This document shows positions 57,413 through 57,559 of a DNA stretch of 64,000 bases, piece after piece. Position 1 is the stretch's first letter. Each line of letters begins with the position of its first letter. The position numbers and the translations under genes are program-made. The stretch spans positions 682,001 through 746,000 of the forward strand of contig NC_014228.1 in the NCBI RefSeq assembly GCF_000252955.1, written 5' to 3'. This DNA comes from Xenorhabdus nematophila ATCC 19061. GTDB taxonomy: Bacteria > Pseudomonadota > Gammaproteobacteria > Enterobacterales > Enterobacteriaceae. The notes beneath the pieces are model-generated. The model searched no databases. It saw only the letters and a list, made by a program, of their open reading frames with translations, and was not told where the DNA came from.

Positions 57413-57559
57413 CTATTTTCTATCCCATGTAGTTTTCCAAAATATATCAGCAGGAGCCTCTCCACCGCGAACGGCATCAAGCAAGTTAGATACTTTCTGA
57501 TCCTTCTGAGCTTTTAGATTTGTAGAATGTTTCTGAACAGCTTTCTGTAATTTGTTCAT
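57413..57559 (-). CDS. XyeA-family (triceptide) RiPP precursor peptide
   Basis: A 48-residue peptide, MNKLQKAVQKHSTN... to ...FWKTTWDRK, preceded by AAGGAAA seven bases before the ATG. Leader about 1-33, Lys/Gln-rich and helical, ends in VRGG; the 15-residue core is EAPADIFWKTTWDRK. The core contains W-x-x motifs (WKT, WDR) of the kind that XyeB-type radical-SAM enzymes crosslink into three-residue cyclophanes. Size, GG site and WKTTW end fit the XYE family as I know it. No radical-SAM gene is in the window, so it is an orphan or acts with a maturase elsewhere. Confidence 0.7.
   Translation of the reverse strand: MNKLQKAVQKHSTNLKAQKDQKVSNLLDAVRGGEAPADIFWKTTWDRK

Follow-up and report, generated by a model that had tools for sequence, protein, structure and literature searches.

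A predicted second-type triceptide precursor in Xenorhabdus nematophila, most likely a relic of an xye cluster split at an insertion sequence

Triceptides are crosslinked peptides of a class that is antibacterial in part, and xenorceptides are products of XYE-type clusters. They have been described as peptides of Xenorhabdus (PMC9484694) and as BamA inhibitors (review, PMC12971899); they are other peptides than the one described here, which shares the genus with them and is known here from its gene alone. The maturase XncB links Trp C6 to the C-beta of Arg or Asn, and Phe C4 to the C-beta of Asn, according to the review PMC11002830. We analysed a 64,000-nucleotide stretch of X. nematophila ATCC 19061 (NC_014228.1, positions 682,001 to 746,000; hereafter the window, and its source the window genome), which contained a precursor gene of a related type (type-2). 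It resembled the XyeA/XyeB (XncA/XncB) system in a leader ending in LLDxVxGG and in aromatic three-residue motifs, and its intact type-2 relatives were accompanied by XyeB, an aspartyl protease, HlyD and a peptidase-type ABC exporter. On the other hand, the window precursor missed the XyeA model TIGR04495, type-2 clusters carried a second precursor-protease pair after the exporter, and the maturase was lost in the window genome. The cores also differed, with [FW]-x-[KR]-x-x-W-x-[KR] in type-2 precursors and, in the alignment of six canonical XyeA cores, W-x-N-x-F-x-[NR]-W-x-[KR]. Darobactin and dynobactin are likewise radical-SAM crosslinked peptides of Gram-negative bacteria, but the type-2 maturase scored 83.9 bits against DarE (cut-off 650) and 116.9 bits against DynA (cut-off 450), which ruled out that type; its second-best model after XyeB was YhhB, at 251.1 bits and under the cut-off of 445. 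A literature search with little reach into subscription journals, and from which the primary papers on triceptides were absent, gave no description of the peptide or the cluster, and one may be in print.

A precursor gene related to XyeA

The minus-strand ORF at 57413-57559 encodes the 48-residue peptide MNKLQKAVQKHSTNLKAQKDQKVSNLLDAVRGGEAPADIFWKTTWDRK, which divides after GG into the leader MNKLQKAVQKHSTNLKAQKDQKVSNLLDAVRGG and the 15-residue core EAPADIFWKTTWDRK. The translation, together with a reading frame conserved in three orthologues, bore out the original prediction of a 48-residue peptide gene with a GG site and a 15-residue core, and the good ribosome-binding site that it named was present as AAGGA, 6 nt 5' of the ATG. 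The features of the locus were as follows.

54339..56037, no strand assigned: left flank, about 82% identical to the X. griffiniae complete-cluster locus, with an integrase-like gene and two structured RNAs
56175..57065, minus strand: aspartyl protease gene, intact, with two DTGAS motifs and, by eye, a signal-peptide-like N terminus
57413..57559, minus strand: type-2 XyeA-like precursor gene, 48 aa, with homologues in G012, G005 (X. griffiniae VH1) and G029
57419..57427, minus strand: core motif W45-D46-R47, candidate three-residue cyclophane by its pattern, compared with the Trp-Arg/Asn links of XncB (accessible part of PMC11002830)
57434..57442, minus strand: core motif F40-W41-K42, candidate three-residue cyclophane by motif pattern
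57461..57559, minus strand: leader, residues 1-33 counted on the translation, with C-terminal LLDAVRGG
57566..57570, minus strand: ribosome-binding site AAGGA, read from the sequence, with the ATG 6 nt downstream
57919..59001, minus strand: IS element at the break point, to the right of the precursor, with its transposase split over two frames
59020..59238, plus strand: truncated methyltransferase gene on the far side of the IS, seemingly derived from a different locus

The precursor lies at 739 kb in the window genome beside the aspartyl protease gene, and the two genes also adjoin in G012, G005 and G029. The predicted IS wreckage at its border was found on the right side, where the transposase of the element at 57919-59001 occupies two frames; we take this element and its copy at 3.68 Mb to be of the IS630 type. 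None of the stop-free frames of at least 120 aa in the window contained a CxxxCxxC motif, and the one XyeB match of the genome lay outside the window, in agreement with the predicted absence of a radical-SAM gene from it. A promoter scan was uninformative, with 10 sites against 11.4 expected. The computed [M+2H]2+ of EAPADIFWKTTWDRK with two crosslinks was approximately 930.46.

Several other features of the window were observed. The left flank shared with X. griffiniae contained Rfam matches to STAXI (55832-55991, 96.3 bits) and EFASI (55181-55309, 72.4 bits). A minus-strand gene run at 44303-50037, with transporter pieces, a dehydrogenase-like N terminus and others, resembled a small biosynthetic group on visual inspection. 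An ORF at the window edge (63143-63931) was weakly similar to ADP-ribosylating toxin A subunits, with 30.7 bits against PF01375 (cut-off 21) and 49 bits against the ArtA model (cut-off 457).

The precursor or a full-length homologue was present in 4 of 60 genomes, its own included, and all four belonged to the genus; the set comprised the window genome, 29 others from the genus, and a remainder from the family and order. A search of the 30 genomes available for the genus, for which seven aligned type-2 precursors served as the query, recovered the same four. Identity to the window peptide was 79% in G012, 65% in G005 and 63% in G029, and all three of these orthologues keep the start, the GG site, W45 and the position of the stop. 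It is exceedingly improbable that the gene is a chance ORF, or an unrelated peptide that merely resembles a precursor: NCBIfam gave no match to the window peptide at E<=1, but the orthologues in three other genomes kept the reading frame, which ruled out a chance ORF, and two of them lie near XyeB. A search of plasmids with the precursor gave no match at E<=0.1.

TIGR04495 (cut-off 33 bits) did not match the window peptide at E<=1, nor the G029 orthologue at E<=0.1, nor those of G012 and G005 at E<=10. Among the type-2 relatives, the Providencia peptide scored 16.4 bits, below the cut-off, and the Sodalis peptide had no match, while the canonical XyeA of the window genome, as a positive control, reached 100.7 bits. 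When seven type-2 precursors were compared as a profile with six canonical XyeA peptides, the probability was nevertheless 90.6 and the E 1.3e-6. As the peptide matched in this comparison and missed TIGR04495, we regard it, as judged by its sequence, as a diverged XyeA-related type outside the XyeA model. Tested as a broad XYE/triceptide precursor, it had XyeA homology and a GG leader (profile comparison and alignment) and aromatic-x-x core motifs (F-W-K and W-D-R), and lacked an adjoining gene for an XyeB-type maturase in the window genome. The original prediction of an XyeA-like precursor thus stood with respect to XyeA homology, GG leader and core motifs; a TIGR04495 match was absent from this diverged type, but the XYE reading survived, since an XyeB-type gene lies near the orthologue in G005 and G029. 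Because these orthologues lie about 4 kb from an XyeB-scoring gene despite missing TIGR04495, the peptide is assigned to a predicted second XYE/triceptide precursor type, which has two core motifs and is common to Xenorhabdus, Providencia and Sodalis.

The double motif [FW]-x-[KR]-x-x-W-x-[KR] occurred in 8 of the 9 type-2 precursors found, which included those of the window and G012, two each from G005 and G029, and those of Providencia and Sodalis. The ninth, a third X. griffiniae gene (G005, L066 14126-14323), has DG in place of GG and one motif only. Eight of 13 loci (L086-L093) were searched for precursors by leader pattern; L086, L087, L089, L091 and L092 contained one, and L088, L090 and L093 gave none. 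The Sodalis precursor (L088) was read by eye after the leader pattern had given none there. Alignment A2 is without the third G005 precursor and predates the finding of the Sodalis peptide. A looser form of the double motif arose in 0.8-5.2% of shuffles per core (six cores, Sodalis not included), so the weight rests on its recurrence in three genera and not on any single sequence.

Complete clusters in relatives and a divided one in X. nematophila

Both G005 and G029 contained a complete cluster, with the minus-strand order precursor(s), radical-SAM gene (395 aa), HlyD gene (393 aa), ABC exporter gene (731 aa), orthologue of the window peptide, and aspartyl protease gene. The radical-SAM proteins exceeded the XyeB cut-off of TIGR04496 (450), with 472.4 bits in G005 and 473.5 bits in G029, and their genes were 3.9 kb and 3.8 kb, respectively, from the orthologue. 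The HlyD and exporter proteins matched general models, with scores below the cut-offs; the best model for the exporter, whose peptidase is presumably of the C39 type, was the bacteriocin-type peptidase/permease/ATPase (469.3 bits, 853.3 required). G029 harbored both XyeB types, each with its own precursor. The sole XyeB found in G005 was type-2; a fragment near a contig end of this genome (L045, G005:C108:109-195) scored 34.3 bits against XyeA. In X. griffiniae, the radical-SAM and hlyD genes are separated by DNA that includes a 79-base stretch resembling the protease gene (L066 11931-12009), and on this basis the precursor-protease pair downstream of the exporter looks like a module that may have been moved or duplicated. 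The far side of the X. griffiniae cluster carried genes of an integrating conjugative element (TIGR03755, TIGR03756 and TIGR03757, each above cut-off), with two genes in between that matched no model. Plasmid searches with the maturase returned 209 records, every one below 60% identity, the best being an annotated XyeB beside an annotated xyeA on an X. bovienii megaplasmid; viral contigs gave 25 loci at identities of up to 33%.

In the window genome, a second half of the type-2 cluster was located at 3,676,203-3,680,837, 2.94 Mb from the precursor. Its hlyD gene is frameshifted (3,676,203-3,676,637 and 3,676,562-3,677,380, 79% and 72% identical to G029) and lies just before the exporter gene, which is in two pieces (3,677,343-3,677,981 and 3,679,218-3,680,837, 80% and 83% identical to G029) separated by an insert of about 1.3 kb whose frames are transposase-like by eye. 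A transposase-like frame, which we assume to be of the IS5 type, lies immediately upstream of hlyD, at the place expected for the end of the maturase gene. The prfC gene (L081 3503-5095) is about 3 kb from this hlyD-exporter half; prfC is a common integration site of SXT-type elements. The suggestion that the locus had lost its maturase agreed with whole-genome searches (TIGR04496 at E<=1e-3; the G029 protein at E<=1), in which no type-2 radical-SAM gene was found and the one XyeB was the canonical gene at 4,305,527-4,306,678 (792.9 bits against TIGR04496); the G029 query otherwise hit two sequences weakly (E 0.03 and E 0.1). The canonical cluster at 4.305 Mb is complete, in the order A, B, protease, HlyD, exporter. 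The X. bovienii cluster has the same order, its third gene being annotated as hypothetical, and the Providencia cluster also starts A, B, protease.

The closest relative, G012, harbored the precursor and protease genes and an exporter frame whose first part is replaced near a contig end; its exporter DNA was 94% identical to the 3.68-Mb half of the window genome. Neither an XyeB match at E<=1e-3 nor an HlyD above 25% identity at E<=1e-15 was found in this genome, and both absences are provisional, given a draft assembly of about 400 contigs in which the cluster reaches a contig end.

A second copy of the window IS, 97% identical and itself interrupted, follows directly after the 3.68-Mb exporter gene in inverted orientation; the element had at least 25 matches in the window genome, many of them partial, among the 40 of 51 candidates that were scored. 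Since the same IS, in opposite orientations, abuts both halves, the split would best be explained by an inversion between the two copies. In such a scheme, an IS would have inserted into the spacer between the exporter and the second precursor, and recombination with a second, inverted copy would have produced a 2.94-Mb inversion that parted the cluster halves. Both flanks were compared with the precursor-exporter spacer of G012 (L068). The window flank gave a weak alignment that scored 82, against a best of 68 in 50 shuffles, and ends at 4301; that of the 3.68-Mb flank scored 70, against a best of 45 in 50 shuffles, and ends at 4402; the two ends, aligned separately, are about 100 bp apart in the spacer.

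If an inversion took place, the genes on the outer side of the two IS copies should once have been neighbours, which was tested among the 30 genus genomes. The methyltransferase gene at 59020-59238 (E<=1e-8) and an esterase-like gene at 3.683 Mb (E<=1e-30) had one other relative each, both in G003, where they were 56% and 44% identical, respectively, and lay on one contig approximately 6.4 kb apart. The two G003 genes converge, whereas un-inversion would place both on one strand. The flanks beyond the two IS copies therefore likely share an origin, and the inversion itself is partly supported, given relatives of 44-56% identity and an orientation unlike that of a simple un-inversion. The two G003 genes belong to a gene group at L106 5642-13881, and those between them resemble, by eye, transport and tailoring genes.

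Relic or working gene

The window gene is, on the likeliest reading, an intact type-2 triceptide precursor left from a second xye cluster that was split at an IS, and most likely a non-functional relic. That second cluster, which in X. griffiniae lies beside the integrating conjugative element genes, would be its origin. By analogy with the family, the intact relatives would use the maturase to crosslink the F/W-x-K/R and W-x-K/R motifs and the exporter to cleave behind GG. The precursor of the window genome would still be translatable with its cognate maturase and exporter gone, and it is on this account that we infer a relic.

The dN/dS between the window genome and G012 was 0.35 for the precursor (12.3 nonsynonymous and 7.7 synonymous differences over 48 codons) and 0.18 for the protease. 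Together with the intact ORF, start, GG and core, these values point to constraint for at least part of the time. In the intact pair G005-G029, nonsynonymous and synonymous differences were 1 and 8 for the same precursor, and 3.5 and 0.5 for the other precursor. With these counts, too small to tell a relic from a working gene, a test for relaxation gave a Fisher p of 0.02 against the same-gene intact pair and 0.27 when the other intact pair was pooled.

Maturation in trans is an unlikely alternative with a small but real chance; here the canonical XyeB at 4.305 Mb would crosslink the orphan peptide, and the accompanying HlyD and peptidase-type exporter would export and cleave it. The original prediction had allowed for a maturase elsewhere, and the whole-genome search indeed gave the canonical XyeB, whose cluster comprises open genes for precursor, XyeB, protease, HlyD and exporter, but this enzyme is only 48% identical to the type-2 enzyme of G029. 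The two leaders have KLQ...LLDxVxGG in common (9 of 1000 shuffles of residues 2-24 scored as high), although the canonical leader is six residues longer and all five amino-acid changes on the window branch fall, by eye, in the leader. W-D-R fits the XncB links, reported between Trp and an Arg or Asn at the second position after it, whereas F-W-K, as an F-x-K motif, is absent from the XncB links named in the accessible part of PMC11002830. The retention in G029 of both XyeBs with their own precursors suggests separate substrates.

A role of the precursor-protease pair that needs no crosslinking, such as that of an unmodified peptide, appears quite improbable. The pair is kept in the window genome and in G012, in both of which searches gave no type-2 maturase and hlyD was broken or not found, and the protease is intact with the low dN/dS given above. 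However, the pair has no exporter of its own, the cluster of the draft G012 runs to a contig end, and both aromatic motifs persist, for which an unmodified peptide has no obvious need.

Meaning for XYE clusters

The predicted relic and its relatives, from Xenorhabdus, Providencia and Sodalis, point to a second XYE precursor class that lies outside the current XyeA model. The cluster of the window genome also illustrates how a RiPP cluster can be divided at an insertion sequence. X. griffiniae and G029 offer complete clusters that could be expressed directly, and the broken copy offers a natural test of XyeB acting in trans on a diverged leader. If trans maturation were true, one maturase would make two triceptides from unlinked genes, the second of them with an F-W-K/W-D-R bicyclic core.
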